Source: Polytrichum commune (Eukaryota; Streptophyta; Polytrichopsida; Polytrichales; Polytrichaceae). From it: a stretch of DNA of 64,000 bases. The notes under the pieces were generated by a model. It saw nothing but the letters and a program-made list of their open reading frames with translations. It made no database searches and was not told where the DNA came from. This document shows positions 1 to 55,600 of this stretch, piece by piece. Positions within the stretch are counted from its first letter, which is position 1, and each line of letters begins with the position of its first letter. The stretch is taken from positions 43,672,758 to 43,736,757 of the forward strand of contig OX485805.1 of assembly GCA_950295325.1 (NCBI GenBank), in the 5' to 3' direction. The position numbers and the translations under genes are program-made.

Positions 1-3000
1 GCTGGATATGTTAACAAAACCGATGGGGATAATCTGAAAGGCATGGTTTACGAGATTGGAATTTTCATAATGGAGGTTCTAGGCGGAATCAAGAACCACG
101 ATATTGATACCTTAGATCAATATGCAACAAGAGCAGGTCCACAGTGGGTGCAAGGCTTCATTGACCCGAGGCTGAATACTGGTTACCATACAGGCCAAGC
201 TGGTACTCTCTTGACCCTCAGTCTAATGTGTATACATTCTAATGAGCATGCGAGGCCAACCATCTGGTCAGCTCGGGATATAATTACGTCAACTGCGGAT
301 ATGGCAACAGATCTGACTCGTTCTCAAGTCCAAGGGCAATTTTCAGCTCTTCATTTAATTTCCTCGAGTACAACGAAGCTTCTGAATACACATGTCAAGA
401 AGTGAGGGACATAACTAGCAATTTCTCAACACCCAAAGGATATGGGAAGTACCTCGGGATATTGTCAAATGGAGAGAAAGTACTGGTGGACCAGTTGCAT
501 CCTAGTTCTGCATCTCCAAAAGAGTTCATCGATCAGGTATGCAAGTTCTTTTCAGTGTCTCACAAGGCCATTCTATGCTCTTTGAGAAACAATTGAGAGG
601 TTTTATAAGAATTTGGGAGCTAGAGTATTATCTCGACTGATGTGCCTGGTTTTAATGCTTCAATTTGTGTAGACCAGTGTTGGTTTGGTATATGCGTGAA
701 TGCATGGTATCAATAACCAACATCCATAATGGTATAGAAGAACCACCCGTGGGTGTTAGAATTGTACACCAATCAAATATTGATATTTGGTTGGTATGTA
801 AAGGTGAGAGAATATATTGAGAGCTTTGATTTCTTTGTTCTAGGTCAAGATGTACACAAAACTGTTGGGAAAAACTTGGGGTTTGGTCATGAAGCCAATT
901 GCCTTCTGCGTGGAGGAGGGTGAGCGAATACTCATATACAGGGATATGGAGACAATGTCTGCGCAAGTATATCTAGGTGAGTCACAGTAGTTTCGTAGGA
1001 ATTTGATCCTACTAGATTCAAATCTTGCAGTGATTAATATGATTGTTGCCCTTTTTGCAGTTGTATCTCGTGTATGTTGATGTTTTGAGGATAGAATTTT
1101 GGTTTTTGTCACAGGGAATAATGCAGAGGCTCCTTTAATTACAGCCAAAGAACACTTAAAAGCATTGCAGGACGAAAGAGGTAAAGAGGTTCTTAAACCA
1201 TTACCACTTAATTTCCAAAATCATTGTTCTTAGAATGCCATCCGTAGATTGTGCACATTTTAAGCAATATTATATGCATTGATTATGAGATACTTCATTC
1301 CCTTCATTCCCAAATGTTAAATAAGGATGTGGTTATGGACACGATATATAGAATCTTAGGAATGTGATCCTATCATATTCAATCTTGCCATGATTGTTAT
1401 GTTTGATTTTGCTTTCTTGCATCTGTATCTAGTGTATGTTGATGTTTTGAAGATAGAAATATGTTCTTTGGCAGAGGATGATGCAACGGTTTCCCTAATT
1501 ACAACCAAACCACACTCAATAGCATTGCAAATCGCAAGAGGTAAATTGACTTTTCAACCATCGCCACATTATTTTGCAAAAACAATCAGTCGCACAATCA
1601 TTGTTCTTAGAGTGCCACCCTTGGATTAGGTGGATATTTCAAGCACTATTCTATATTAGATACTTTGACACCTTCATCCCTAGATGTTTGATGAAGCTTG
1701 TGGTTGTGCACGAACTAGGCTTGAATTCGTTATGCAACATGGGCATCGTCCTCCACAACACAACTTTCGATAATATTCATGTGACAAGAAATGGATGTGT
1801 AATGTTTGGATTACAATTTGAGGAAGAAAACAGCTTGACGAAGTCTGAGTAAGGACATTATTTCTCATTAGCTCTGAAGTCTTGATTTTTAGATAGGCTA
1901 TGTGTGTCACCATCACGTTGTGCTTGAATAGTTAATTATTGGCCTAGTGAACCAGATTATCCTTGTGATCTACTGGTAGGATTCGTGTCACAGTTTAAAG
2001 TCCATGTATTTCATCCCCCATGATCTTGGTTATGCAGGAAACTCTCAAAGCAAATGGTAGATTTTGGTACCATACTGGGGCAGCTTGTATGCGGGCCAAA
2101 ATGGCAGTCATCTTTTGGTACACCTATGCACTTGAAGAATATGGTAATATTGTCCTTTTTAAATCATGAATTTTCTTTCATTACCCTTGTGAACTACAAG
2201 AATCAGTTGGGCTCATCACATGCTCCAAGCGTGTGACGATTGCGTCCAATATCATGACACATCCACAACTTTTCTTATCTATCTATCTATGCATTGGATT
2301 GGGATTATTTTTAATTCGTCTTTTATGGATTCAAAATTCGACTTCCATGAATACAACATATGATTCTCAAGAATCATGAGATGAATATTGCGGTTGTGAT
2401 GTTCATGGGTCATGAATTAAGTAAGGTGGAGCATCCTAAACCCATTATCCCACCCAAAACCGACATTCTAAAATCTTCCGCAATAAGTACATCTTGATTT
2501 TGAGAATATTCACTAGCTTAACATCAACCTCGCGAGTTCCCTGATGCATTTGGATCATGTACCAATAAAACTTTGAATCCTTGTAACTATTGCATACGGC
2601 ATTGGGATAAGGCATAATGTGATGCATTGGAATCCCTTTCAATTGTGAATGAGAAACATTAGGCCTTTGTCCATCTAATATAAGTAGATATACTAAGGGT
2701 TTTTTACAACAGTTTTAGCATTGTCTACTCTATGTGGCCACTTCAACAACTTTGTCAATTCACATGGAGGCATAAATGACTATGTTAATTCAACGTTCAA
2801 CGTGAATGATTTGTTATTCTACACGAAATGGTAAAGGAGGAACTGGAAGTTTAATAAGTGGAATAGGCTTAGATATTTGTGTACATAACAAGCCATGAAT
2901 ATCAAGAGTTTTGCTTTTGAATGTCTCACTTTATAGATAAAAATAAAAAACTAAAAACTAAGACGAATGTTGCAGGCAGTTCATATTGAGCAGTTTGTGG

Positions 3001-3510
3001 ATCCTGGGTTTCGCAAATTCAACAACTTGGCGATGTCACAACTTGCAATTTTAGCATCATTGTGCCTAGAAGAGGGGCATGCAAGATTGAGAATGGTCAA
3101 TGTCATTCAAAAGCTAGAAGGAGTGGCGAAATCATGGAGAGGTATGGAAGTTCAGGTTTGAGTTGTGTTTCTTACTGATAGACCTATTTCCTTGTCATTG
3201 TTCTCATCAATTTATTTTTGTGCGAATGTTTAGGAAAGGTTATCATTTTTATGAACGTCTACCACCTCAACGGTAGTTGAATTGGTTAGAATGTATAGCT
3301 TGGAATAGATGTCCAACAATGAGCCAACAACTTGAGTAGTTGGGATACATCTTTAGCTGAGATACATCTTTAGCAGGGATACATGTGACATTCAGATCTT
3401 CGCCAAATCACGCTACTGGTACCCATTGTAATTCACCCACAAATTCAAAGGTCACCAGATCAACCGGTCATCTTAGGAATTGTAGACACTGAGGGGCTTA
3501 GCGAAACTAG

Positions 3511-4527
3511 TTACACTTTATACTTGGGGCCGGATTGAGGGCCGGCCGGAACTCTCAAAATTTGGGCCAATAGGATCGCTCGATTTCATCAAATCGGGTC
3601 CAAGGGCTTTACACTTGGGGCCGGTCCGAACACTCACTCATCCCATGTGGTGTACTAGGTGGCACAATTTTGGCGCCAAACCATCGGGCCATAGATGAGA
3701 GTTCGGGACGAGCTTTTCCTCGGCCCGAACTCCCGATAATAAGTTAGGGTTAGTCTAATAAGGCAACACTTAGTATAAGTATGTTAGCAATAGGGTAATA
3801 ACACAACAATTAAGACACTAATCATACAATTAAGATAAAAAAAATGAAACATTTTAAGTTGTCAATCAAGAATTTGGTGTGCATTAGGCAATGGGTTAGT
3901 CCAATAACACAATAACTAGCACAAATATGGTAGCATTAGACTAATAACACAACAATTAGGGTGTTAATTACACACTTAAGATAAAAATGAAGCATTTAAT
4001 CAAGCATATGGTACAACTTAGGCTATGGGTTAGTCTAATAAGACAACAGTTGGTATAAACATGGTAGCATTAGACTAACAACACAACAATTAAGGTGTTA
4101 ATGATACACTTAAGACAAAAATGAAACATTTAAACCGTTAATCAAGAATATGGTGTGCCTCCTAAACCACACTCGTCAGTTAATCCATTGAACATGGTAG
4201 ATAAATTTATAGGAGCATTTTTACACCGGAGTAGATTCAAAGCACCCAATTTAGTCTAGTGAGACCCAATTTCAATTCATTATTCACAACCCTATAGATG
4301 TCATCCCCATAGTATTAAGTGTTGTGAAACTTAATTGTTGAGAACACTGAACCATGGTAAGTTCTATGAAACTTAACCTTCAAGACCATCGGGCCCTAGA
4401 ATCGGGCCTCACCACTTTACATGTGACAAGGTTGGGCCCCAAAAAAGCTCATAAAGTGGGGCCGGATTGAGGGCTTTATCGGGCCGGTGCTCCGGCCAGC
4501 CCCAGACCGTGTATAAAGCCGCCCTTA
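3511..4527. repeat. GC-ended repetitive element with internal ~140-bp tandem repeats (copy A)
   Basis: Sequence in the intron of copy A starts near a TTTATACTTGGGGCCGG motif and ends at GCCGCCCTTA. Both ends are rich in GGGCCGG/CCGGCCC. The AT-rich middle repeats a unit of about 135-150 bp containing GGGTTAGTCTAATAA and CACAACAATTA. The ends share loosely inverted blocks, so this is probably a non-autonomous DNA transposon. The same element occurs at the same intron position in B and C, so it predates the tandem duplication. Copy A has fewer internal units than B and C. It has no coding capacity I trust. Confidence 0.5.
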
Positions 4528-8500: not shown

Positions 8501-9047
8501 TAAATCTCCAAGTTCCATGCGGTACATCGTACCTCCCAATACGGTAAATCATATAATGCGCTCCTCCTCTTTATCCCTGTCACTCGAACAGGATCCTCTC
8601 GCATAGGCCGCGTACCATCCACCATGAACCTCTCTCTCGCATCTGCCCATTCCAAAACTTGAGCCGAAGTCACCCTTGGTGGAGCAGTCCGCCACTCAGG
8701 AACAAAGTTAAATGCCTCCCCACCGTGTCTGAAGTTATGCAACACATTCAACCACTTCCTGTGTTGACCATCATAAACTGTCTTCCGCAAATGAGTAGAA
8801 TACCTGCCACAAGTTGCTGGTCCACAATGTGGGCATGCAACATAGCCCTTTGTTGCGCACCCGCTTATCAATCCCAACCCTGGAAAGTCTGTCACAGTGT
8901 ACAAGCACACCGCGCGCATCAAAAACCTGCTAGCATTTCCCCGTGTCATTGCATCATCCACCCATACGCCTGGATTCCATAAGTCCTTCAACTCCTCGAT
9001 GACAGGAGCAAAATATACATCAAAAGTCTTTGAGCTCGGTGCATGGG

Positions 9048-10017
9048 TGTCGCAACCCTTGCTAAGCCCCCTTGACAATCTTGCCAATTTTCCATTTTAG
9101 CAAAGGTTACGAGCGCTAACCATTCGCATTCCGCCATGCTAATGGTGAGCTCCTCCTACCCCGGACCTTATAGTTCATAGGAGGGAACCAACCCTCCTAC
9201 TTTGCTTTTGGGACTCACCCCTTAATCGGTAACCATTCCTTAGATGTGGACTTCCATCCATGGAAGCCCAATCCTATGTTGATCATCGCATTGCCGGAGC
9301 AACACTACAACAACCCGAACCATACTAGGCAACTATGGCCTCACAATGAGCCAATGCCCATGGACGCCTTGCCGTTTGGCCTCGGGTGGGTGAGGCCACA
9401 CCACCTCACCCATATAAGCCTCTAGGACTCTACGCGGGGCCCCTACCCCACCGTCAACCAACCTCTTGTCTCTACCAAGAGTTGGGGCCAAGTGGACAAT
9501 TTCCCTTAGCCGCTGGGCCTAGAAGCCCCCACAGCTTCAGACCATCATAACTTCCTTGTATGATCTTTGATGCTAACACTTGACCACTCCATCTTCATCT
9601 ACGCTTCACGTAGATGCCGATGCACTCCTCACTTGCCCCATTCGGGCAAGTGGTGAGGAAGTTATACCTGTTTGAACCTTGGCAGTCCCGGGAATCACTC
9701 CCAGGCACTGCTGTACCAGGGCGCTGTCCCGGGACAGCGCCCCACTCAAATGGCCATAACTCCTAGCTCACACCTCCGATTGAGGTGTTCTTGAGCATTC
9801 TAGAATCACCACGCCATGAGCTACGCATAGCTCATGGCCTTACCCTAGTGCCTCCTAGTCTCCGTGGGTGGGAGGCGTTCCCAACGCCCGCGGCCCTCAC
9901 CCACACTAGGATCACTTGGGCCCTCTCACCAACGGCGCCACAAGTCCCGGGTGTCACTCCGGGGTCCCCCTTGTGCCCATGGTGTTTCGGGCACTCCTCA
10001 TGGAGAGGTGCGCGACA
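9048..10017. mobile_element. Solo LTR inserted in the transposase exon
   Basis: A 970-bp GC-richer block starts TGTCGCAACCC and ends GGTGCGCGACA, the TG...CA ends of an LTR. It is flanked by exact 5-bp duplications ATGGG at 9043-9047 and 10018-10022. The transposase protein is continuous across the block once it is ignored. No second LTR, primer-binding site or internal gag/pol is present, so it is best read as a solo LTR left by recombination. Copia or Gypsy origin cannot be told from this sequence. Confidence 0.88.
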
Positions 10018-11157
10018 ATGGGGCCCTGGAATGAGTAGCGTCAAAAGTATGAAAAATTTCTTGCACATGACCCACGGAGGTAAATTCAGAATGACAATAA
10101 GCACAGGCCAAATTGACCAGCTGCTGCTTTTGAATGAAAACGGATTTAATCCGTCAGTGCTTATGAGAAGCCTAGGATTCCTCGCCTCCCCACCAAAGTC
10201 CAGGTACATGGCATCTACATGCTTCCAAGCAGGTGCATCCGCAGGGTTTCGCATCAATCCATCTTCCGAAGGGTTCTCAGCCCACCATGTCATCATTTTT
10301 GACAAATATTCTGTTCCGTACATTCTTCTCAATCTAGGAGTTATAGGAAAGTGTCGTACCACCTTCACCGGTTTCTTGTCTTTGCCACGGCGATAAAATC
10401 TTGGAGTCAAACATTTTGGGCAACGATTCAACAATGCATAGGGACCCCTAAAAAGTATACAACCCTTCAAACATGCATGAATCACCGTGTACCCTAATCC
10501 AAGTGCTCTCAAAAGTTTTGTTGCTTGCCTTTCTGTCTTTGGAAGACAGTTTGGTTGTGGCAAGATTTCATTACTCAAGGCCCGAAGAAGCTCATCTACA
10601 CATGTATTGGGCACACCATGGGCTTTGCAGATGGTAAGGATAACAAGAAGTGCACCCAATAAGGAAACTGTGGCGCTTGCGTACAGGGGAATCCTATCTG
10701 CTTCTCCCAAACGACGCAGAAGTTCATCCTCCATCTCCATTGTAGCCTCGTCTGCATCTGCCCTTGGAAAATCCCAGGTTGTTGGCCTTGAGTCTCCTTC
10801 ACCCTCACCTCCGTTATCTTCACTATCAAAATATGTGTCATCTACCTCCTCCTCGTCGATGGATACTTCAGCATTCTCATCCGCAGGCGACCTTGAAATA
10901 TCGTCCTCGACTAAAGGTTCGGAGGCATCAACAGGAGCACTACCCGCATCGTTGCGCTTCAAAATCAGAGGATCATCACTCCTACGGAAAGCTGCAGCTA
11001 CAAGTTCAGTCATCTCAATCTGAGTGTCCAGTGCAACGGGAACTGGTTCCAAGTCGTCCGGTGGGAGACCATTTGGGCCTCCAAATTCAGCATAGTTGGC
11101 TCTCAGGGCACGCTCGTGCCACACCCACTCCTCATCGCTTGAATCCTCTGCTTCATC

Positions 11158-12724
11158 CTGCAATCATCCATTATTCCTTAATGCAGTCACATAATTTTCC
11201 ATGGCTATATCATGCAAAAGGAACTAAGACATCAACAAGGAATATAGGAGAATTGTATTGACCGTCATCTATCCATTGACTATGTAACTCCATGGATCTA
11301 CTGTGGGCACTTCCTTACTCCACATGAGCCGAAATTTGCAATCGTATTTCATCTTGCCATCATGGTAGCCATCATAACCCCTGATGTCATAGGGCGATAA
11401 TTTGTATGAACTTCTCGTACAAATCATGTATAGGTAACAATTGGACACATCAACCACAACTGCAAGCATGCAAAAGACACATAAAGATAGTTAGTACACC
11501 CGGGTCACTTACAAACACCACCCCAGACTTTTGGCTTCCCGGACTTTAAAATCAATCTCATTTCATTGGGATTAACTACAACGCATGCCATTCCTTCCCA
11601 CACATTTGCCTCTCGCATAGGCCATTGTGATACAACCTTGGACATAGGCACTTGGTAACTTCTGGGAGGACTTTCATTATTCTAACAGGTGGCTGCAAAG
11701 GGGCAGATGAAACAAGTACCTGGTTTTACCCACATTCCTTCCCACAAATTTGTGGACCCAAACTATCATGAAGAACGTGGACAGAAACCAACCAACAATA
11801 AATGTTCACTTGAAGCCAACAATCCTACACTTGCTTGGGATTTCATAGGAAGCCACTTTCTGCAAGGAAGTTCTCAATGGAATTTTTTTCTCCACTTGAG
11901 ACTCCAATCCAGCTGAATGTGCATGTGAGTTTAATTATTTCAATAACACCAGAATTTGTAAAGTCATCAAAGATAAGAAGTGTAAATCTCAAAAGTGATA
12001 TTTGAGTGAATGTTTGTGAACTCTTTTGCATTGCATTGGCCGTAAGAATGTCAGGAGATTCTCCAAAATTTGATGTGCAACTCGTCATTTTTTCTACCTC
12101 CAAAAAAAACTTCCACTGTTACACTCTTCACACCACCTAACACAAATACTTTATAATAAACCAATTGACAAAACATGGACGGCCAAAAACAATATTGAAT
12201 TTTGGAGAATCCCAACCGCACTCATCCATACAGTTAGATCTCCCTGAAAGTAAGCGGATCTCCATGAACAAAATCACAAACCGTTGAAACTGAAATCACA
12301 TGTTTTCACCCCACAATCACCAAAAGCATTTAGGGGTTAAACGCAGCATATAAGGGTTTTGAATGGTTGAACCCTTACCAACTAACATGCTCATGCAAAG
12401 AGAGAAGTATGTACTCCCCCACAGTAGCGACTCAAAGGTCTGTAAGCCATTAGGGCAGAACCTGATTCTGTATTCGGGACACCATACATAGCGATGACAA
12501 GGGTAGCACTGAAGACATCACATCAATTACTTTGGACACAACATGGGGACCAACATTGAGAATGAAGCACAACGTTCGCAAATGAATCTAGATCTGGTAT
12601 GTCATCCTAACCGGGGTCTTCAATGCTGCAAACTTGTAGAGTACCTCTATCATACCCACACCACAAAATGAAGCATAACTGACGTGACCTAGAGAGTAAA
12701 GGAAATGAACAAAGGGCACATTAC
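11158..12724. other. Intron/spacer region of the transposase gene
   Basis: This lies between the zinc-finger-like first exon and the acidic second exon of the transposase gene. A minus-strand open stretch at 11269-11469 follows an acceptor-like TGCAG and could be an extra exon (SPYDIRGYDGYHDGKMKYD). It matches no family I know. The rest shows no feature I can support. Confidence 0.3.
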
Positions 12725-22600: not shown

Positions 22601-22840
22601 GTACTGTAGTTTAATTAAGGAGAGACTCTTTCCCAAGAGCCGGGCGAAGGCAAATGGTTCTGAGCTGGCTGCAGGAGGGGACTCACGGGAAGCAGTTGGG
22701 GAGGGCCTGGGCAGCGTGGCCTTTGGGCTTGGAACATCACTGGCACCCACGAGGCAGAGCTCGTTGGCGAGTGTTTAGCAACTTACGGGCCCTTCAACCT
22801 CCTGTCGGTAAATCCTGGCCATGGCCGGCCTGCACTAAGT

Positions 22841-23209
22841 TTGAGAATTCATACTTCGCGTAGTAGTCTTAGTCTGCGATTGCGGTCGTGGATGTGCAGC
22901 GGGAAAGGGAAGGACGATCGGGTGGAAGAAGATGGCCCTCGTATACAAATTTCTGTCAGGTTTTGCTCATCCCCGCCTGTGTCTCCTTTTGTCGGTGTAG
23001 GAAAATCTTGCTTTCGCCCGACAGAGATGCCAACCTTGGTAGGAATAGGCTATGAACTCTATAATTCGATCATGTATTCTGTTTGGCTGCACATGTTAAG
23101 AATCCTCCTTGCATCGGTGAGTGGAATCCCACAAAGGCTGATCATGGAGCTGAGCATTCAAGTTTCAGAAGCAGAGTTGAGATGCAAAAGTTATACGAGG
23201 TCTAAGTGA
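22841..23209 (+). other. Conserved leader ORF upstream of kinase B (unconfirmed)
   Basis: This is a 122-codon open stretch (GVGKSCFRPTEMPTLVGIG, then LLASVSGIPQRLIMELSIQ), conserved in length within one residue and in sequence with 50371-50745 upstream of copy C. It may be a 5' leader exon, an upstream ORF or a small gene. It resembles no family I know. Recent duplication alone could explain the conservation. Confidence 0.3.
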
Positions 23210-25137
23210 AGAGTCCTTTACATTTAGGAAAACTGGTTCGTAGCCGTTTCGTGATAGTGGATCCCCATTTCCTCGAGGCCTTTTGTAGCAACAAGTACGA
23301 GATAAGGATCACAAAGATCAAGACGTATACCAGAAATACAATGAGATTCCGCACTCTCTGGATGATCGATAGCCTGATCTCCGTGCCCTCTCTCTGTGAT
23401 AAAGTTTCATCGATCCTGTTACTTGTCTCGTGATTCAAGCTTATGTAGAAGCAGACCAAGGATTTCCATGTCTTATGCATGTTGTTGAATCTGGATATCA
23501 CCTGTATACACTCAATGCTCTGTCATGCTAGCCGTAGGGAACTGGTTTGACAACCAACAAATCCATTTGTCATAATTTGACTATATGCACCCAGGAGTCT
23601 CTTCAGTAGGAGTACGTTTACAGAACTTCGGTTTGTAATTCGGCTCTCATTTTACTTCCCGTGCAACTTTTGTTCAGAGTGGAATTGTAGACATACCGCA
23701 TGCACATATCCATGTACCCATCCGATCATTGCGGACTTACGGTGTCATTTCTGCAGTATATGTTCCTGTTATTAAGTGATACGTCAACCTGGGCCTCATC
23801 TCTAGATTGATAATTGGTCATTGTGCTCTGCAGATCTGTGTTCCAAGCTGCAGGAACCCTTTCTGAGGGACGTCGTAAGACTTCTGGTTCTTGTGTAACA
23901 CACGGTACTATGAAGAAAAATCATGTGTAGGTAATTGAATACATTTCAGACGGTCCATGTTGTTGACATATTAATTCAGAGAACAGGAGTCCTTGTGTAA
24001 TATAGGTTGTTATATTTTCATCATTATTAAATGGCATGGAGTCTGCATCGTTTGGATTAGGAACATGTGGCACTACTGGAACTGGCCAACAAATAAGGTT
24101 GTGCATCAAATTGTGGCAAGCGATTTTACCAAAGGCGATTTCTTCTCAATGCAGGTCTCTGCAAAGATTGGCCATAGGGAAAGCTTTCAAAGATATGGAT
24201 AAAGTTGTTTAAAAGAGGTGCATGAAATGAGAAAAATAAATTGATATTAAAGTCCAGGAAGCTCAAAGGGTTATCGGACTAGAAGTACATCAAGATGGTG
24301 TATAAAGAATAATATTGTGTGGGGATGGAAATTCTTCCAAGTATATTCTTCTAGGTCAATTGTGGAAGATTTGGTCTTGTAGATATTATGCGGGATTCCA
24401 GATTATTTACGCAGTAATGAAAGGCCAGAAAGGAAGTAGAAAGACCACATTGGTATTGGTATTGTAATTGCCATCTCCTTGAAGATGTTGGCCATCTACA
24501 CGCGGACATATACACATGGACATTTACATGTGCAAGATATGCATCTCCAGAGAGAATAAGTTGTTACCACTTATCGTGAGGGAAGTGTTCTTTGTGAAGA
24601 TCTTTGTTGGGGGTCACAACGTGCATTACAATGGCAGTTCGTGGGTATTAAGTATATCAATGAAAGGGGAGAGCTGGCTACTACTCACAGTTCAACTGGT
24701 TCGTTTTCCCTAATTTCGGGTTTAAAATTCAAACTCTAGGAAATTTACCGAACTACATTTTTGGGAAATTTTCCTACTTATGTTAGAATACAATGAACAA
24801 CCGAAGCGTTTCATTGAATATCCGGTTGTCAATAAAGAAGTAAAGAGAGTGACCGAGTTGGCTCAAATTTCTCCTCGTTCACTGAAGTATATCCCTGGTG
24901 TTGCTTAACTAATTGCAGAACTCCGTTGAAGTTGAAGGGTGCTTCTGCCCATCCTCAAATAATCTTTTATATGTTATATTTCTTACTTGGTCAAGGTGTG
25001 TTTTCTGTGGTCATGTAAGTGAACTAATTTTCACCTCGAAGTAATATTCTTGTCATCTCTTGCTCTTGCGTGCAGGAACTTCAGACCAGGGCGCACTGTG
25101 CACTTCCTGATTAGGCAGGATATGCTCGCTGACATCA

Positions 25138-28100
25138 ATGGCTAATTATTTGAGGTTTTCTGGAGCTGTCCTAGATGAAATTGAGAGTGGTTTGTCGACC
25201 AGGAGGATCATCTTGCAATTGAACGACGCACAGTGCAGTCGCCTCCTTGGAAATCTTAGGGAAACTCATGATCATTTTTACCAGAGCCTATTGTTCCCAA
25301 GACGTACACTACGTGAGAAATGTCTTCCATTTTATAAGGAGTTCTATCGCATTGTGGATCATACAGAAGCAATCGTGAAGGAGTGCAGTAAGCCAGATTG
25401 GCTGGAAGCAGCCATCATGCAAGCGGGCAACCAAGAGGTATTTAAACAGATGTCCCGGAAGCTCCATTTCTGCATCAATGGGTTTACTGAGACCGTTGAA
25501 CCTGTTCTTCACATCTGCAGTAACATTAAGTTCACTGCTCTAAGTGTAACAGTGGAGCAACATGAGAGGGATGAGGACTTCCGTCAAGATTCTTTGAAAT
25601 TTATGGAACGACTTAAGGAGGTCGTGAACCAACAGGTTTCAGAGGACACCATCCTAGATCCTAGGAAACACCAACTCGCAGAATACCTCATTGAACGTGA
25701 GAATTACGTGCCGTCCACAAACCTTGACTTGTATACATCTCTCCCACAATTCTACGTTGCAAAGCGTGAGTACCCAAGAGTTGGGGAACCCATTGGGTCA
25801 GGCGCAGCTGGATCGGTTCTGAAGGTGCGCTGGTTGGGGCTAGAATGTGCTAAAAAATACTTTGCTACTAATCCTGATGAGAGTAACTCACCACGGAAGT
25901 TGGAGCTAATGAAGGAGGTGAGCGCCCTGATGCATTTAAGCCATCCACATATTGTAAAGCTGCTCTGTGTGAGTATGGAACGTGAGGCTTCTTTTTTGAT
26001 GGAGCTCATGCCGATGAGCCTCCATAATTTCATCAAGAAACGATGGAAGGGGCAGAAATACGTCCCCTTTACATTGGCAGCTGCCACTGACATTATGTTG
26101 CAGATTGCCCTAGGTATGGAATATCTTCATGGCAAAAGAGTGGTCCATCGCGACTTGAAATCCCAGAATATCCTTGTCACCCCTTCAGCTTGTGAAGGAC
26201 TCTCTGATGAGGGCTATGGAGACATTAAGGTGACAGATTTTGGGTTGTCTAAGACACTGACTCATGAGTTAACTGAGCCTACTGGGATATTAGGAACTAC
26301 TCGTTGGATGGCACCCGAGGTGTTAAGATTGAAAGAAGGCTTGAAACCAAAACTTGACTGGAGAAAAGCCGACACTTACAGCTTTGCAATGACGTGTTCG
26401 GAGATACTCACTGGGGCTACACCTTTCTCTGAAGGTGATTGCAGAATAGATATGCTGTATGCAAGGATCACCAAGGGTGAAGAAAGACCAAAGCTGCCTT
26501 CGGCATGTCCAAAATTTCTAGCATCTTTGTTGACACAATGCTGGGATACAAATCCAGCTCTCCGTCCCAGTTTCACCGAGATCTGCAACATGCTTCAACT
26601 CCTCCAAGGTTTCCTATTCAGAGGCTCTGAACTGATCCACAGGAGCTGGTCATTAGCAGAAACTTCGAGTTTGGATCAAACGAGTGCACTCAGACGTGCA
26701 ACAGGGCCAGAGCAGGACATACTCGTTAAAGTAGGCTTATCCTCGTTGAAGCAGTCCATATTTGACACGTTCTTCAGGTCCTCCAAGATCTTCAGGTCGC
26801 AGTTGATAAGTCCCCAGTGTGATGAGGAGGTTTTGTCAACCATCCTCATGGGGAATTTCCCACAACCAGTGGGTTTACGGGGAGTACAGGTATTTGAATT
26901 TAATTCCTCTCTAATTTACGAGTCAAGGAAGGAATTGGAATTGAGGACGATGACAAAGTGTAGATATTTTGTAGAGGGGATGAAGACATTGACTGACAAT
27001 CCTCGTAACCATCTGGTGAAATTGCAATACTGGCATTACGCTTCTTTGAAACACTCAGAACATAAGAAGCTTTATGTTGTGTATGACGCTTGGTCAAGCA
27101 CTCTTTACGAGCATCTCAGTGGATTAAAGAAGACGCTCCCGTGGAATACACGGTTACATATATTAACTGGATTCATGGCATGTGTTGTGTACTTCATGGA
27201 GCTGATTGAGCTCAATGTGATTAGCTCCATTTCTCTCAGCACCAAAAGCGTCCTTCTGGACAAGAGCTACAACTTACACTTTACTGATGTAAGTCTGGTG
27301 CACGACGCTGGACATGTTAAGGCAACCAACGGGGATAATCTGAAAGGCATGGTTTACGAGATTGGAATTTTCATAATGAACGTTCTAAGTGGAATCAGGA
27401 AGGACCATATTGATACCTCAGATCAATATGCAATAGGAGAGAAACTTACCTTAGATCCACAGTGGGTGCAAGGCTTCATTGACCCGAGGCTGAATACTGG
27501 TTACCATACAGGCCAAGCTGGTACTCTCTTGACCCTCAGTCTCATGTGTACACATCCTAATGAGCATGCGAGGCCAACCATCTGGTTAGCTCGGGATATA
27601 ATTACCTCAACTGCGGATATGGCAACAAAGTTAACTCGTTCTCAAGTCCAAGAGCAATTTTCAGCTCTTGATTTCCTCGAGTGCAACGGAGCTTCTGAAT
27701 TCACATGTCAAGAGATGAGGGATATGACTAGCAATTTCTCGACGCCCAAAGGATATGGGAAGTACCTCGGGACATTGCCAAATGGAGAGAAAGTATTGGT
27801 GGACCAGTTGCATCCTAGTTCTGCATCTCCAAAAGAATTTATCGATCAGGTACATTTTCTAATGAAATAATTGTGGATGGAACACAACCACCGCATTTCC
27901 TCATTTCAATAGCTCTCATATTATGGTATTTATATGGTATGAAGTGACCAGGCCTGGTATGAAGTGACCAGGCCTGGTATGAAGTGACCAGGCCTGGTAT
28001 GAAGTGACCAGGCCTGGTATGAAGTGACCAGGCCTGGTATGAAGAGTTTGAGATTGCACTCAGGAGGTATGCAAGTTCGTTTCAGTGCCTCACAAGGCCA

Positions 28101-30961
28101 TTCTATGCACTTCGAGAAACAATTGAGAGGTTCGATAAGAATTTGGGAACTAGAGTATATCTCAACTGAGGTGCCTAGTTTTAATGCTTCAATTTGTGTA
28201 GACCAATGTTGGTTTGGTATATATGTGAATGCATGGTATCAATAATCAACATCCATGATGGTATGGAAGAACCACCCGTGGGTGTCAGAATTGTACACCA
28301 GTCAAATATTGATATTTGGTTGGTATGTCAAGGTGAGAATATTTGTAGAGCCGAATTACTATTTGGGTCAGTACCATTCGAAGCCATATTGATACTCGGG
28401 GATTTTTTCCTAGGTATGAAGGTTCTTGCAATGTTGATAGACCCGAATTGTATCGAAAACAAAAGTAACGTCAGCTCTCTATACCCTACTGGTCTCAAGA
28501 AATGTGAAATCCTCATCATAGATATGCAGTGGGTATGAGAAAAGGACAATATGAGACCAACACTGGTCTAGACTATATTGAGAGATTTGATTTCTTTGTT
28601 CTAGGTCAAGGTGTACACAAAACTGCCAACTTGGTGTTTGGTCATGAACCCAATTGGCTTCTGCGTGGAGGAGGGTGAGCGAATACTCATATACAGGGAT
28701 ATGGAGACAATGCCTGCACAAGTATATCTAGGTGAGTCACATTAGTTTCGTAGGAATTTGATCGTACCAGATTCAATTCTTTGTAGTGATTGATACAATT
28801 GTTGCCCTTTTTGCAGTTGTATCTCGTGTATGTTGATGTTTTGAGGATAGAATTATGATTTTTGGCACAGGGGTTCTTGCAAAGGCTTCTCTAATTACAA
28901 CCAAACAACACTCAAAAGCATTGCAGGACGAAAGAGGTAAAGAGGTTCCTCAACCATTACCACTTAATTTCCAAAATCATTGTTAGAAGGACAAACATTG
29001 TTCTTAGAATGCCATCCGTAGATTGTGCACATTTAGGGCAATATTATATGCATTGATTATGAGATACTTTGACACTTCATTCCCGAATGTTTAATGAAGC
29101 ATGTGGTTATAGACCTGAGGGATATGGAGACAATGCCTCGAAAAGTATATCTGGGCGAGTCACACTAGTTTCGTAGGAATCTGATCCTATCAGATTCAAT
29201 CTTGCCGTGATAGTTATGTTTGATTTTTGCAGTTGTATCTAGTGTGTGTTGATGTTTTGAAGATAGAAATATGTTCTTTGGCAGAGGATAATGCAAAGGT
29301 CTCCCTAATTACAACCAACCCACACTCGATAGCATTGCACATCGCAAAAGGTAAATTGACTTTTTAACCATCACCACTTCATTTTGCAAAATCATTCAGT
29401 TGCACAATCATTGTTCTTAGAGTACCATCCTTGGATTTTCAAGCAACATTGTATATGAGATACTTTGACACCTTCATCCCCAGATGTTTGATGAAGCATA
29501 TGGTTGTGGACGAAATAGGCTTGAATTCGTTATGCAACATGGGCATCGTCCTCCACAACACAACTTTTGATAATATTCATGTGACAAGAAATGGAGATGT
29601 AATGTTTGGATTACAATTTGAGGAAGAAAACAGCTTGACGAAGTCTGAGTAAGGACTTCATTTCTCACTAGCTCTGAAGTCTTGATTTTTAGATAGGCTA
29701 CGTGTGTCACCATCACGTTGTGCTTGTATAGTTAGTTGTTGACCTAGTGAACCTGATTATTCTTGTGATCTATTGGTAGGATTCATGTCAAACTTCAAAG
29801 TCCAGGTAATTCATCCCCCATGATCCTGATTATGCAGGAAACTCTCAAAGCAAATGGAAGATTTTGGTACCATACTGGGGCAGCTTGTATGCGGGCCAAA
29901 ATGGCAGTCATCTTTTGGTACACCTATGCACTTGAAGAATATGGTAATGTTCTCTCTTTTAAATCATGAATTTTCTTGCATTAGCCTTGTGAACTACAAG
30001 AATCAGTTGGGCTCATCACATGCTCCAAGCGGGTGATGATTGCGTCCAATGTCATGACACATCCGCAACTTTTCTTATCTATCTATCTATGCACTGGATT
30101 GGGACTATTTTTAATTCGTCTTTCATGGAATTGAAATTCGACTTCCACAAATAAAACTTATTATTCTAAAGAATCATGAGATGAATCTTGCCTTTGTGAT
30201 GTTCATGAGTGATGAATTAAATAAGGTGGAGCATGCTAAACCATTACCCCACCCAAAACCGACACCCTAAAATCTTCCACAATAAGTACATCTTGATTTT
30301 GAGAATGTTCACTAGCTTAACATCAACCTCCCGAGTCCCCTGATGCATTTGGATCATATACCAACAAAACTCTGAATCCTTTTAACTATTGCATACGGCA
30401 TTGGGATAAGGCATAATGTGATGCATTGGAATCCCTTTCAATCGTGAATGAGACACATTAGGCCTTTGTCCATCTAATATAAGTAGATATACTAAGGGTT
30501 TTATACAACGGTTTGAGCATTGTCTACTTTATGTGGCCACTTCAACAACATTGTCAATTCACATGGAGGCATAAATGACTATGTTAATTCAACGTTCAAC
30601 GTGAATGAATTTGTTATTTTACACAAAAGGCTAAAGGAGTATCTGCAAGTTAAGTTGAATAAGCTTAGATATTTGTGTACATAACAAGCCATGAATATCA
30701 AGAGTTTTTCTTTTGAATATCTCACTTTTATTATAGGTAAACATAGAAAACTAAAAACTAAGACGAATGTTGCAGGCAATTCATATTGAGCAGTTTGTGG
30801 ATCCTGGGTTTCTCAAATTCAACAACTTGGCGATGTCACAACTTGCAATTCTAGCATCGATGTGCCTAGAAGAGGGGCATGCAAGATTGAGTATGGTTGA
30901 CGTCATTCAAAAGCTAGAAGGAGTGGCGGAATCATGGAGAGGTATGGAAGTTGTGTTTTGA
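25138..30961 (+). CDS. HeLo/DUF1221-like tandem-kinase protein, copy B (kinase plus two pseudokinases)
   Basis: Exons 25138-27849, 28605-28731, 28871-28936, 29285-29350, 29444-29648, 29838-29943 and 30776 onward join in phase, ending at a TGA at 30959-30961 (about 1155 residues). Residues 1-190 match the DUF1221 (plant MLKL HeLo-like) pattern: LQLNDAQCSRLL, KEFYRIVDHTEAIVKEC, PDWLEAAI. Kinase 1 (about 211-490) has a GSGAAGSV loop at about 221, Lys239/240, HRDLKSQN at 337-344, DFG at 367-369 and APE at 392-394, so it looks active (Ser/Thr type). Module 2 (about 590-870) lacks HRD and DFG (SISLSTKSVLLD, FTDVSLVHD) but keeps a C-lobe. Module 3 starts at EFTCQEMRDMTSNFSTPKGY, has VLVDQL for the usual Lys strand, HNTTFDN at the catalytic loop, and a C-lobe CLEEGHARLSMVDVIQKLE. 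An acceptor TGCAG at 25081-25090 region precedes the ATG exon. Downstream exons are orphaned by loss of an acceptor near 32841. Location is probably cytosolic. A role in defence or cell death is inferred. Confidence 0.8.
27941..28040 (+). repeat. Five copies of a 20-bp repeat in intron 1 of copy B
   Basis: The unit GAAGTGACCAGGCCTGGTAT is repeated five times without change. Each unit contains the perfect palindrome ACCAGGCCTGGT. C has one unit (about 55500-55519) and A lacks this part of the intron. Recent replication slippage is the simplest cause. Confidence 0.95.
28697..29530 (+). repeat. Internal ~420-bp tandem duplication carrying a 66-nt exon (copy B)
   Basis: The sequence from GGATATGGAGACAATGCCT (28697) is repeated from about 29119, covering an exon end, an intron, a 66-nt exon and the following intron. 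The duplicated exons are 28871-28936 and 29285-29350. Both begin and end in the same phase and encode related 22-residue segments (SLITT, then H, then AL). Equivalent duplications are in A (about 957-1700) and C (about 56169-57000), so it is older than the gene duplications. Confidence 0.8.
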
Positions 30962-31295
30962 GTTGTGTTTCTTACAAATAGACCTATTTCCTTGTCATTT
31001 TTCTCATCAATTTATTTTTGTGCAAATGTTTAGGAAAAGGTTTGTCATTTTTATGAACGTCTACCACTTCAACAGTAGTTGAATTGGTTAGAATGTATAG
31101 CTTTGAATAGATGTCAAACATCGAGCCAACAACTTGAGTAGCTGGGATACATCTTCACCAGGGATACAGGTGCGATTCAGATCTTTGCCAAATCACGCTA
31201 CTGGTACCCATTGTATTTCACCCACAAATTCGAAGGTCACCGGATCAATCGGTCATCTTAGAAATTGTGGACACTGAGGGGCTTAGCGAACTTAG

Positions 31296-32694
31296 TTACA
31301 CTTTATACTTGGGGCCGGATTGAGGGCCGGCCTGAACTCTCAAAATTTGGGCCAATAGGATCGCTCGATTTCATCAAATCAGGTCCAAGGGCTTTATGTT
31401 TGGGGCCGGCCCGAACACTCACTCATCCCATGTGGCGTCCTAGGTGGGACAACTTTGGCGCCAAACCATCGGGCCGTAGATGAGAGTTCGGGACGAGCTT
31501 TTCCTCGGCCCGAACTCCCATCTAGGGCCCGATTGGGCTCCTCCGTTGGATTGAGCTCATCTTGTCCGTTAATCATTAGGGGGTAAATTCTTTTCCTCTC
31601 CTCTTCACTCCACTTCTCTTCACTCCATTCCTCTAATAGCATAATAATAAATATAAATATGATTGCATTAGACTAATAAGGCAACAATTAGGGCGTTAAT
31701 CACATACTTAAGAAAAAATGAAACATTCAAGCATTTGATCAAGCATATAGTATGATTTAAGCTATGGGTTAGTCTAATAATGCATTAATTAGCTACAATA
31801 TGATAGCATTAGGCTAATAACACAACAATTAAGGTGTTAATCACACACTTAAGATAAAAATGAAACATTTGAGCATTTAATCAAGCACATAGTATGACTT
31901 AGGCTATGGGTTAGTCTAATAAGGCAAAACTTAGTATAAGTATGTTAGCAATAGGGTAATAACACAACAATTAAGATGTTAATCATACAGTTAAAATAAA
32001 AATGAAACATTTTAAGTTGTCAATCAAGAATTTGATGTGCATTAAGCAATAGGTTAGTCCAATAACACAATAATTAGCACAAATCTAGTAGCATTAGACT
32101 AATAACACAACAATTAGGGTGCTAATTACACACTTAAGATAAAAATGAAGCATTTAATCAAGCATATAGTACAACTTAAGTTATGGGTTAGTCTAATAAG
32201 ACAACAAGTAGTATAAATATGGTAGCATTAGACTAACAACACAACAATTAAGGTGTTAATTATACACTTAAGACAAAAAAAAAAAAACATTTAAGCCGTT
32301 AATCAAGAATATGGTGTGCCTCCTTAACCACACTCGTTGGTTAATCCATTGAACATGGTAGATAAATTTATAGGAGCATTTTGACGGCGGAATAGATTCA
32401 AAGGCCCCAATTTAGTCTAGTGGGACCCAATTTCAATTCATTAATCACAACCCTATAGATGTCATCCCCATAGTATTAAGTCTCATGAAACTTAATTGTC
32501 GAGAACACCGAACATTGACCGTGGTAATTTCTATGAAACTTAAGCCTCAAGACCATCGGGCCCTAGAATCGGGCCTCACCACTTTACATGTGACAAGGTT
32601 GGGCCCCAAAAAAGTTCATAAAGTGGGGCCGGATTGAGGGCTTCATCGGGCCGGTGCTCCGGCCGGCCCCAGGCCGTGTGTAATGCCGCCCTTA
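31296..32694. repeat. GC-ended repetitive element with ~140-bp tandem units (copy B)
   Basis: It is the same element as at 3511-4527. GGGTTAGTCTAATAA-type landmarks occur near 31760, 31910, 32049 and 32184, about 135-150 bp apart. GGGCCGGATTGAGGGC occurs near both ends in direct orientation. It ends GCCGCCCTTA, and the copy-A MITE is inserted at the equivalent TTA. Open frames at its left edge (31265-31642, both strands) are not genes. Confidence 0.5.
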
Positions 32695-32843
32695 GTTATA
32701 CTTTCTAGGAGTATGTACCAATGATTCTACGGTTCTAATTTGGAAAATAAGTGTTTGAGATGGTACATTATTATACAATCCTCACTAATTTGGAGCTGAA
32801 GTTGGTGGAAATTCTAATGTTAAGATAATATGTAACAGATTAT

Positions 32844-33271
32844 GTACTTTGGGATTGGTAAGTTCATATGAGACTATTGCCCAGGAGTTTACTGTCCATG
32901 AGCCTAGGCCTGAATCACGTTGGCATGTGCTGGAGGCGAAGCGGGAAGGGTATCGTTTCAGGCAGGCAAGTGAAGGCATCATGTTTTATGGCCTGGTGAA
33001 TGTGTTTCGCCTTTGCAGTTTCCTGTCAAGGACAGAATTTGTTGTCCAGTTCTTGTGGCTCATGGGGGGAGACCGGGGAAATGTGCAGGTTCTTAAAATG
33101 AGACAGCTGGATCGAAATGAATCCCAAGGCTATCAAGAACCTCTTGTAGAAGACTTGCTGCAAAGTCTGTCGTATCGTAAGGATCATGAGAATTTAGTTG
33201 GATATTGTGGCCATAACAACGACCTTTACTTGTTGTACAATGTGCACTATGAGTGTTATATCCCTCCATAA
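32844..33271 (+). pseudogene. Orphaned module-4 exons of copy B
   Basis: The region matching exon 5196-5347 of copy A (SSYETIAQEFTVHEPRPES, RWHVLEAKREGYRF) is at 32844-32995. The next exon at 33019-33271 reads ICCPVLVAHGGDRGNVQVLKM, RQLDRNESQGY, LLQSLSYRKDHENLVGYC and LYLLYNVHYE, which looks like a receptor-kinase N-lobe with a possible Lys strand (VLKMRQLD). B lacks the four bases CAGG that form the acceptor in A, so splicing from 30941 would fail or shift. A stop TAA lies at 33269. C shares the lesion. Confidence 0.6.
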
Positions 33272-33360
33272 TCTCCGAAGTCTTTAGAGAAGTTCATTAC
33301 CTTTCCTAATCTAAACTTGTTACAAGGTCTTGAATTTGCTGTCTAAGTTGCGAATCATTA

Positions 33361-34312
33361 GACTACTGTACGTTAAGGGCAGCTTCGGCACAAAATAATT
33401 CTAAAAATAGATGCCGAACTTTTTGGAATATTATTAGCATTTTTGCCGAATATAAAATTAATTATTTTTCAAAATTGCCAAAATGTAAGAATTTTTTACT
33501 TCTCACTAGAGTTTTACTTAAAGTGGAAGCATATGTGAATTTTGAAGGAGAGAAGGTGCTCATTTTGTAATCAAGCTCACTTACATTAGCCCACAAAGAA
33601 TATGGGTTAAGAAGTAGCAAGACTCTAGGTGAGGCTTTTCAAATGTGTTGTACACAAATGTTTGGAGTCCAATTGAGCATAGAAGATGAAGTTTTATAGA
33701 ATTTTGTCCAACTAACAAAAGTTGAGAAATCAATCTTTCTTCCACCTCCAACACGTTTTGTGTCAAAATAAGTCTTTATGCAAAAGATATGGACAAAACA
33801 TTGCAGCCGTGTAAAGATCAAAAAATTAAAATGCGTTCATAACAGTTTTTCGGAGCTCATTTGTGCATAGAAGATCAACTTTTTTGGAATTTTGTGGGTC
33901 TAAGAAAAGTTTAGAAATCAAGTAATCTTTCACCTCCAACAAATTTTATGTCATTTGAAGACTCTATGCAAAAGTTATGCGTGTTATAAAAATGAAGTCT
34001 AACTAGGTGCTTCACCTCAAAGTTTACATATCCCATATGCATTGTTGAACACAACTCCACTCTACTTGCATAAAGCACAGAGCATTCTCAACTCTTTACT
34101 CACATCTTACTTGTCATTCAATGCGAGAGAGATGTACAAGATATAAGCTTAAATAGAAAATTAAAAATGAATTTAAGCCGAATTTTTAAAAATTAAAATA
34201 GAATATTGCCGAAAATATGAATATACTATTTTAAGGTACTGAACCTACTTTTTGAACTTTAATTAAATATTTGGCAGCAAGGTGCCGAAGCTGCCCTTAA
34301 CGTACGGTAGTC
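33361..34312. mobile_element. 952-bp element with ~31-bp inverted repeats, unit B only
   Basis: The ends GACTACTGTACGTTAAGGGC and its complement (GCCCTTAACGTACGGTAGTC) flank AT-rich non-coding DNA. The inverted repeats continue inward with AGCTTCGGCAC and differ at one position. The true boundary and target duplication are ambiguous because the flanking bases are themselves palindromic (GTAC). It lies between module-4 exons in B. C lacks the whole interval through a larger deletion. Confidence 0.65.
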
Positions 34313-52680: not shown

Positions 52681-55600
52681 ATGGCTAATTATTTGGAGTT
52701 TGCTGGAGCTGTCCTAGATGAAATTGAGAGTGGTTTGTCGACCAGGAGGATCATCTTGCAATTGAACGCCGCAAAGTGCAAGCGCCTCCTTGGAAATCTT
52801 AGAAAAACTCATGATCATTTTTACCAGAGCCTATTTTTCCCAACACGTACACTACGTCAAAAATGTGTTCCATTTTATAAGGAGTTCTATCGCATTGTGG
52901 AGCATACAGAAGCAATCGTGAAGGAGTGCAGTAAGCCGGATTGGCTGCAAGCAGCCATCATGCAAGCGGGCAACCAAGAGGTATTTATACAGATGTCCCG
53001 GAAGCTCCATTTCTGCATCAATGGGTTTACTGAGACCGTTGAACCTGTTCTTTACATGTGGAGTTCTTTACATCTTTACATTCAGTTCACTGATCTAAGT
53101 GTAACAGTGGAGCAACATGAGAGGGATGACGACTTCTGTCAAGACTCTTTGAAATTTATGGAACGACTTAAGGAGGTCGTGAACCAACAGGTTTCAGAGG
53201 ACACCATTACAGATCCTTGGAAACACCAACTCGCAGAATACCTCATTGAACGTGAGAATTACATGTCATCCACAAACCTTGACTTGTATACATCCCTCCC
53301 ACAATTCTATGTTGCAAACCGTGAGTACCCAAGAGTTGGGGAACCCATTGGGTCAGGCTCAGCTGGATCGGTTCTGAAGGTGCGCTGGTTGGGGCTAGAA
53401 TGTGCTGAAAAATACTTTGCCACTAATCCTCATGAGAGTAACTCACCACGGAAGTTGGAGCTAGAGAAGGAGGTGAGGGCCCTGGTGCATTTAAACCATC
53501 CGCATATTGTAAAGCTGCTCTGTGTACGTGAGTATGGAGCGTGAGGTTTCTTTTTTGATGGAGCTCATGCCGATGAGCCTCCATAATTTCATCAAGAAAC
53601 GATGGAAGGGGCAGGAATACGTCCCCTTTACATTGGCAGCGGCCACTGACATTATGTTGCAGATTGCCCTAGGTATGGAATATCTTCATGGCAAAGGAGT
53701 GGTCCATCGCGACTTGAAATCGCAGAATATCCTTGTCACCCCTTCAGCTTGTGATGGACTCTCTGATGAGGGCTATGGAGACATTAAGGTGACAGATTTT
53801 GGGTTGTCTAAGACACTGACTCATGAGTTAACTGAGCCTACTGGGATATTAGGAACTACTCGTTGGATGGCACCCGAGGTGTTAAGATTGAAAGAAGGCT
53901 TGAAACCAAAAATTGATTGGAGAAAAGCTGACACTTACAGCTTTGCAATGACGTGTTCGGAGATACTCACTGGGGCTGTACCTTTCTCTGAAAGTGATTG
54001 CACAATAGCTATGCAGTATGAAAGGATCACCAAGGGTGGAGAAAGACCAAAGCTGCCTTTGGCATGTCCAAAATTTCTAGCATCTTTGTTGACACAATGC
54101 TGGGATACAAATCCAACTCTCCGTCCCAGTTTCACCAAGATATGCAACATGCTTCAACTCCTCCAAGGTTACCTAATCAGAGGCTCTGAACTAATCCACA
54201 GGAGCTGGTCAACAGTAGAAACTTGGAGTATGGATGAAAAGAGTGCACTCAGACCTGCAACAAGGCCAGAGCGGTACATACTCGTTAAAGTAGGCTTATC
54301 CTCGTCGAAGCAGTTGAAGTTGGACAGGTTCTTCAGGTCCCTCAAGATCTTCAGGTCGCAGTTGATAAGTCCCCAGTGTGATCAGGAGGTTTCGTCATCC
54401 ATCCTCATGGGGAATTTCCCACAACCAGTGGGTTTACGGGGAGTACAGGTATTTGAATTTAATTCCTCTCTAAACTATGAGTCATGGAGGGAATTGGAAT
54501 TGAGGACGATGACAAAGTGTAGATATTTTGTAGAGGGGATGAAGGCATTGACTGACAATCCTCGTAACCATCTGGTGAAATTGCAATACTGGCATTACGC
54601 TTCTTTGAAACACTCAGAACATAACAAGCTTTACGTTGTGTATGACGCTTGGTCAAGCACTCTTTACGAGCATCTCAGTGGATTAAAGAAGACGCTCCCG
54701 TGGAATACACGGTTACATATATTAACTGGATTCATGGCATGTGTTGTGTACTTCATTCAGCTGATTGAGCTCAATGTGATTAGCTCCATTTCTCTCAGCA
54801 CCAAAAGCGTCCGTCTGGACAAGAGCTACAACTTACACTTTACTGATGTAAGTCTGGTGCACGACGCTCGATATCTTAAGCCAACCAAGGGGGATTATCT
54901 GAAAGGCATGGTTTACAAGATTGGAATTTTCATAATGGAGGTTCTAGGTGGAATCAGGAAGGACCATATTGATACCTCAGATCAATATGCAACAGCAGAG
55001 AAACTTACCTTAGATCCACAGTGGGTGCAAGGCTTCATTGACCCGAGGCTGAATACTGGTTACCATACAGGCCAAGCTGGTACTCTCTTGACCCTCAGTC
55101 TCATGTGTACACATCCTAATGAGCATGCGAGGCCAACCATCTGGTTAGCTCGGGATATAATTACCTCAACTGCGGGTATGGCAACAAAGTTGACTCCTTC
55201 CCAAGTCCTAGTGCAACATTTAGCTCTTGATTTCCTCGAGTGCAACGGAGCTTCTGAATACACATGTCAAGAGGTGAGGGATATGACTAGCAATTTCTCG
55301 ACGCCCAAAGGATATGGGAAGTACCCCGGGACATTGCCAAATGGAGAGAAAGTATTGGTGGACCAGTTGCATCCTAGTTCTGCATCTCCAAAAGAATTTA
55401 TCGATCAGGTACATTTATTGATGAAATCATTGTGGATGGCACACAACCACTGCATTTCGTCATTTCAATAGCTCTCATATTATGGTATTTATATGGTATG
55501 AAGTGACCAGGCCTGGTATGAAGAACTTGAGATTGCACTCAGGAGGTATGCAAGTTCATTTCAGTGCCTCACAATATGCAGTTCGAGAAACAATTGAGAG

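Follow-up and report, generated by a model that had tools for sequence, protein, structure and literature searches.

Pto and PBL2 are kinases known as effector targets or decoys. Plant MLKL proteins, in which a helical domain precedes a kinase, are conserved across seed plants according to the portion of a review on which we draw, and wheat Pm13 is presented, in the part of the report used here, as an MLKL_NTD followed by a kinase with intact kinase motifs (PMC10951266). For tandem kinase proteins a decoy role has been proposed, and a survey counts 92 proteins with two kinase-like domains and, in the excerpts available, no additional conserved domains (PMC6170490, PMC11006675). In mosses a kinase-NB-ARC-LRR (PNL) class is known from Physcomitrella and is called moss-specific in the section of the source consulted (PMC3352924). 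Chia and collaborators, in a text likewise seen as excerpts, treat PNLs as kinase-type NLRs and report that one moss kinase domain gave a modest and variable response (PMC11218826).

Here we compare with these systems a gene cluster of the moss Polytrichum commune, part of which lies in the 64,000-nucleotide stretch of DNA that was analysed, hereafter the window (C3:43672758-43736757). A sequence-only reading had proposed that one locus of the window, copy B, joins the MLKL and tandem kinase designs in a single polypeptide, with a DUF1221/MLKL-like helical domain followed by four kinase-like modules, and had known of no described protein with such a layout. Our search of the open-licence PMC literature agrees with the latter, as no paper with this domain layout was found in it; later tandem kinase atlases could name the layout. 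We tentatively regard the cluster, with a confidence somewhat short of an even chance, as immune-receptor-like genes that would encode an executor of the MLKL/PNL type, with several kinase decoys in series as its sensor.

Methods

The genome searched comprises 408 Mb in 64 contigs. In the whole-frame genome search the best 50 of 779 candidates were scored, so that the numbers of copies and family members are those among the scored candidates. In the genome search for NB-ARC the best 126 of 466 candidates were scored, and all NB-ARC counts are lower bounds. A local NB-ARC profile was built from seven of the family's long frames. The family profile of the helical domain was made from 25 aligned domains, 20 of which come from outside the cluster; as a control, L017 was removed, the member whose own DUF1221 score exceeds the cut-off.

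Results and discussion

Nine copies and the first exon

Copy B contains one open frame (window 25111-27870), in which exon 1 extends on the forward strand from an ATG at 25138 to a donor at 27849 and comprises 904 codons with no stop. The layout read earlier from this exon stands: a helical domain is followed by an active-looking kinase, a pseudokinase and the N-lobe of module 3, all in one frame (Table 1). The whole-frame search identified, among the best 50 of 779 candidates, nine paralogous copies, eight of which lie at C3:43.650-43.861 Mb (approximately 210 kb) in an arrangement of tandem duplication and one at C1:66.118 Mb. A further 39 matches are 32-38% identical and cover the helical domain and kinase only. 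The exon 1 frame is open in five of the nine copies (B, c1, c5, c6 and c9) and broken in the other four, with frame shifts in C, c7 and c8, and a stop plus frame-breaking indels in c2. To judge from its sequence, the cluster appears to encode single proteins that consist of an MLKL-like front end, an active kinase and a chain of dead kinases similar to known targets of pathogens; provided that the genes are expressed as predicted, one molecule would both sense and execute.

Table 1. Coordinates of the features in the window.
Feature	Position	Strand	Remarks
Copy c2, 3' part	1..4525	+	Exon 1 begins upstream of the window; one stop and frame-breaking indels
Copy B helical domain, DUF1221/MLKL-type, residues 1-212	25138..25773	+	Family profile, AF2 model
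Copy B module 1, kinase, residues 213-500	25774..26637	+	PF07714, 3.1e-47
Copy B module 2, pseudokinase	26710..27630	+	phmmer against PDB, alignment to lectin-type receptor kinases
Copy B exon 1 end, module 3 N-lobe	27691..27849	+	Lysine replaced (VLVD); donor CAG/GT (exon/intron), phase 0
Exon 2, module 3 (predicted)	28605..28731	+	Phase 0 to 1; no in-frame stops in nine copies
Exon 3, module 3 (predicted)	29285..29350	+	Phase 1 to 1; no in-frame stops in nine copies
Exon 4, module 3 catalytic-loop region (predicted)	29444..29648	+	Phase 1 to 2; open in 8/9 copies, shifted in c5
Exon 5, module 3 (predicted)	29838..29943	+	Phase 2 to 0; no in-frame stops in nine copies
Exon 6, module 3 C-lobe end (predicted)	30776..30941	+	Phase 0 to 1; no in-frame stops in nine copies
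Insertion-like stretch, intron following exon 6	31290..32690		Largely absent from c1, c7, c8 and c9 (alignment); flanking repeat
Copy B open frame with module 4 remnants (RLCK-VII/PBL-type N-lobe)	32789..33271	+	44% identical to PBL exon over 54 residues; ends TAA
Copy B stretch unmatched in other copies	about 33245..34308		BLAST blocks; adjoins end of module 4 remnant
Copy C exon 1	52681..55471	+	4-base insertion between the modules' open frames breaks the exon

The helical N-terminus

The kinship of the N-terminus with DUF1221 and MLKL that had been proposed earlier holds for the family, but not for copy B taken by itself. Searched against PDB, the 25-member profile retrieved 6lba at 2.1e-6 and 6ka4 at 0.23, both of which we take to be Arabidopsis MLKLs (the PDB title of 6lba is Protein kinase family protein), and when L017 was left out 6lba was still the top match (1.5e-4). 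In single-sequence Pfam searches of the 25 members, at E-values up to 1, DUF1221 was matched by six (best 7.5e-7), MLKL_N by nine (best 0.0036), RPW8 by three (best 9.2e-6) and ATG17_like by seven (best 2.1e-4). The helical domain of copy B alone matched no Pfam family, and the profile made of the five intact copies only gave seven weak PDB matches with no MLKL among them. The AF2 model of the copy B domain is all-helical with a pLDDT of 76; Foldseek placed MLKL executioner domains second and eighth among its 25 matches (the second with probability 0.72 and E 2.1), none of which reached an E-value of 0.001 or lower. Genome-wide, DUF1221 was seen once (C1:75400340) and MLKL_N 37 times at E-values up to 10, with at least eight of these over or about the cut-off. 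The comparisons support a placement of the helical N-terminus with DUF1221 and plant MLKL at the level of the family, reached via its relatives rather than via copy B.

An active-looking kinase shared with moss PNL receptors

Module 1 was confirmed as an active-looking kinase. PF07714 is the sole Pfam call on the open frame of copy B (residues 216-486), and the G-loop, the lysine, HRDLKSQN, DFG and APE are all present. HRD and DFG are kept in all nine copies, and the exceptions among the other motifs are an altered lysine in copy C and an altered APE in c5. When residues 1-500 were compared with PDB, 6lba came first (7e-44, aligned over 147-494), followed by EGFR and, in third place, 6ka4 (1.8e-39). 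The kinase directly follows the helical domain, and the best PDB match to the pair is 6lba, as befits the MLKL type. The cluster genes are hence like plant MLKLs, Pm13 included, in having a related helical domain and then a kinase, with the kinase motifs intact as in Pm13 (PMC10951266, in the part used). They differ by two or three extra pseudokinase modules, and by their host, which is a moss, whereas the portions of the literature drawn upon describe plant MLKLs for seed plants.

The same front end is found in receptors of the PNL class. A Pfam scan of three long frames of the family (L008, L009 and L012) gave a helical domain, a kinase, NB-ARC and LRR, and the local NB-ARC profile scores, in addition to its seven source frames L008-L014, also L025 and L023. 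At least 23 of the 39 family matches outside the cluster have, on their own strand, an NB-ARC match no more than 5 kb downstream. In the window, in L001-L007 and in L031 (10 kb stretches with sister copies) the local profile found no NB-ARC at E-values up to 1, and none of the 126 NB-ARC matches scored, of 466 candidates, lies near the cluster; the cluster genes thus have no detected NB-ARC after the kinase, by which PNLs are defined. What they have in common with moss PNL receptors is a homologous front end of helical domain and kinase, at the 32-38% identity given above, and what sets them apart is that pseudokinases stand where the NB-ARC would be. By its sequence, the PNL front end in this genome looks like an MLKL. 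In the tree the window copies form their own long branch, and their placement is unsure because long branches meet.

The seven source frames (L008-L014, at C4:11941500, C6:617000, C2:16396500, C2:17387500, C6:798000, C2:23921500 and C6:6665000) are PNL frames with a DUF1221/MLKL-type helical domain before the kinase, and L008 carries a very long stretch of near-identical LRRs. At L016:1829-5239 and L015:3549-6500, both on the reverse strand, one open frame holds two successive units of helical domain plus kinase, with HRD and DFG in both units. This is a second tandem design within the helical-domain-plus-kinase family.

A second module that has lost its catalytic motifs

Module 2 is a pseudokinase without HRD and DFG, as had been read. 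Its catalytic loop is SISLSTKS and DVS replaces DFG, and HRD is lacking in nine of nine copies. No Pfam family was called for the module. A single-sequence phmmer search of PDB matched the lectin kinase 6cth (9.4e-7), and the identity to two lectin-type receptor kinases of the same genome is 24-25%; the AF2 model is poor (pLDDT 46). A profile search, which also had 6cth as top match, was set aside as biased, since the profile itself held two lectin-type kinases. With all 52 candidates scored, module 2 and its neighbours occur only in the nine copies, the exceptions being weak matches to receptor kinases and, on C2, one decayed fragment.

Modules 1 and 2 stand in one uninterrupted exon, and the presence of an active kinase and a pseudokinase in one chain is the likeness to tandem kinase proteins (WTK1/Yr15 and others). 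Compared with the surveyed tandem kinases, the cluster genes add a DUF1221-type domain and have three or four kinase-like modules that derive from different kinase families. The proteins might also work in the manner of wheat tandem kinases, together with a separate NLR: the pseudokinase would bind an effector, the kinase would be freed and the NLR would execute, while the helical domain would regulate or assemble rather than kill. A tandem of kinase and pseudokinases is what this predicts, the WTK3-WTN1 pair provides a precedent (from a review, in the part available), and NB-ARC genes are many in the genome (126 scored of 466 candidates). Nevertheless, we consider it quite improbable, given that described tandem kinases are without an MLKL-type domain in the excerpts used (PMC6170490, PMC11006675) and that in other plant proteins domains of the MLKL type are linked to cell death (PMC10951266 and the review on plant MLKLs, both in part).

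Module 3 and the exon chain

Module 3 continues beyond exon 1 through five small exons in phase, which accords with the earlier proposal; we infer all the exon joins from the sequence. In ungapped columns all 11 splice dinucleotides, donors and acceptors together, agree across the nine copies, as compared with 58 of 91 GT and 53 of 79 AG dinucleotides in the introns. Exons have 20 indel events (5.9 per kb), of which 13 are multiples of three, and introns have 59 (21.7 per kb), again with 13 multiples of three. The frame of exons 2-6 was judged by stops, indels and splice sites because dN/dS does not discriminate between frames: it is 0.50 in the coding frame and 0.57 in one of the wrong frames, which has the lower value of the two for exons 2 and 6. 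Two other exon candidates were dropped, 28871-28936 because c1 and c9 lack it or have it in altered form, and 29780-29805 because it has a stop in seven of nine copies. Exons 1-6 of copy B, joined in phase, would give a chain of approximately 1,130 residues.

At the HRD position module 3 has LHN. Spliced from c1, the module scores 20 bits against the Pfam kinase cut-off of 23.1, just below it, and its first PDB match is 2qkw (3.8e-8), presumably Pto bound to AvrPto. It may therefore be described, as a sequence, as distantly Pto-like. Within its module 3 region c1 also repeats short pieces of exons 2, 3 and 4, and in intron 1 of copy B there is a 20-base tandem repeat (window 27950-28040, forward strand) that is shorter in other copies.

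Read without splicing, the copy B frame stops seven codons past the exon 1 donor; exon 6 of copy B, read on into the intron, would stop after a few residues. The first of these stops would suit a product of exon 1 only, a helical-domain kinase with one pseudokinase (910 residues) that is regulated in cis as in Janus kinases, the later exons then being decaying remnants. The four broken copies of exon 1, the stub to which module 4 is reduced in copy B and the poor separation of frames by dN/dS in exons 2-6 point the same way. Such a product would, however, terminate within a kinase N-lobe, and it would leave unaccounted for that exons 2-6 are in phase, with splice dinucleotides identical throughout the nine copies, and that four of these five exons lack in-frame stops in every copy, the fifth being shifted in one; we hold it to be unlikely.

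Module 4, complete in two sister copies

The claim of four modules had to be transferred from copy B to its sisters. In copy B module 4 consists of N-lobe remnants only, at about 32879-33271, with a stop beside an insertion-like stretch. It is complete in two of nine copies only, c1 and c9, both outside the window, for which ten exons in phase predict chains of 1,429 and 1,439 residues with no internal stops. Of the proposed union of MLKL-type and tandem kinase designs in one polypeptide, what remains is that N-terminus, kinase and pseudokinases share one unspliced exon with a continuation predicted in phase; the four modules in copy B do not. Exons 6 and 7 were joined on the basis of matching phase; no in-frame ATG lies between the stop that precedes exon 7 and the kinase homology in this exon.

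Module 4 of c1 is matched by the Pfam kinase at 2.9e-19, has PBL2 as first PDB match (7.3e-49) and shares 66% identity, across 126 residues, with the main exon of the PBL-type gene L028. Three intron positions are common to module 4 and the intact L028, and a GC donor (GCAAGT) is present in c1, c8 and L028; in c9 it was located by script. From these common intron positions and donor it follows that a complete PBL-type gene was probably captured, introns included. In module 4 of c1, c8 and c9, CGN takes the place of HRD and NGF that of DFG, so the catalytic motifs are lacking, and the activation loop is shortened. Closest kinase and gene structure both assign module 4 of c1, c8 and c9 to RLCK-VII/PBL; the window copies have a remnant only. 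Module 4 has the look of an RLCK-VII/PBL-type gene that was captured and now lacks HRD and DFG. It is like the kinases of that group (PBL2, BIK1, RIPK) in sequence, intron positions and GC donor, and unlike them in its lost motifs, its short loop and its fusion at the C-terminal end of a larger protein.

In c1 the N-lobe exon of module 3 occurs a second time, after module 4 (L001:8571-8914), and L007 has it at the matching place. A fifth module was rejected, as 20 kb of c1 contained no further full match to exons 2-6 and no following exons were found there.

Selection and decay

Values of dN/dS for intact and broken copies, respectively, were 0.74 and 0.82 for exon 1 as a whole, 0.73 and 1.43 for the helical domain, 0.61 and 0.37 for the kinase, 1.38 and 1.82 for the linker, 0.80 and 1.09 for module 2, and 0.35 and 0.29 for the module 3 N-lobe. 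A rough simulation, in which substitutions fall at random up to the divergence observed, gives an expectation of 2.7 stops per lineage, with none in 5% of lineages. Constraint thus seems weak, yet visible in the open frames.

Values near 1 for parts of the protein, the four broken exons, the shifted exon 4 of c5 and the insertions and truncated module 4 of several copies are what one would see if a fused gene had been amplified by local duplication and the cluster were now dying and mostly functionless. We find this improbable, since five of nine copies keep some 904 codons open where the rough model expects stops, indels are rarer in exons and more often in threes, and module 1 has its HRD and DFG in every copy. 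The linker value in intact copies, the tandem duplication and the frequent decay fit a fast-evolving defence family.

Proposed mode of action

According to the reading that we prefer, of an executor with a row of kinase decoys as sensor, the executor would be the MLKL-type unit, a DUF1221/HeLo-related bundle plus the kinase with intact motifs, which also fronts the PNLs of this genome. The place of the PNL NB-ARC and LRR would be taken by the pseudokinase chain: the receptor-kinase-like module 2, module 3 with its distant likeness to Pto and, in c1 and c9, the RLCK-VII/PBL-like module 4. These pseudokinases could serve as bait to pathogen molecules directed against receptor kinases and RLCKs. 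Once a bait is bound or altered, the active kinase and the helical bundle would be released from restraint, and the two could then signal or damage the membrane, leading to cell death. The decoy role is suggested by the kinship of modules 3 and 4 and by the precedent of tandem kinases (PMC6170490, PMC11006675, in excerpts). We infer bait function, release and membrane action, as well as the joining of the RNA and the production of the protein.

We counted in favour of an executor with decoys that module 1 retains HRD and DFG in nine of nine copies while module 2 is without HRD in all nine, along with the fused frame open in five copies, the MLKL kinship of the front end, the nearest kinases of modules 3 and 4, the gene structure of module 4, the ten-exon chains of c1 and c9 and the indel pattern of the exons. 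Against it we counted the weak selection, the broken exon 1 in four of nine copies, the four-module chains in two of nine and the poor separation of frames by dN/dS in exons 2-6, and further the N-terminal domain of copy B that is not recognised alone, its fold match at E 2.1 and the exon 6-7 join by phase only.

It is rather doubtful, though worth stating, that the cluster represents a fourth way in which plant intracellular immune receptors are built, with the MLKL-type executor that is also carried by moss PNL receptors being driven here by captured decoys from three kinase families instead of NB-ARC-LRR, RLCK-VII included, with bait, kinase and bundle in one chain and no NLR needed. If the proposal is right, MLKL-type executors and tandem-kinase decoys, which are known separately, would be joined in one protein outside the flowering plants, and an RLCK-VII gene would have been captured whole as a sensor. 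It would also suggest that moss PNL receptors have an MLKL-type unit as their kinase front end, and such a unit might kill cells under the control of either NB-ARC-LRR or pseudokinases. The cluster proteins could then show tandem kinase signalling without a partner NLR.

Other features of the window

An open frame of approximately 180 codons lies upstream of copies B and C (22664-23209 and 50194-50745, forward strand); it is conserved between both, has no Pfam match and could belong to the repeat unit as a 5' portion. On the reverse strand, window 6218-11163 contains what is left of a tnp2/Transposase_21 element with DUF4216 and DUF4218.
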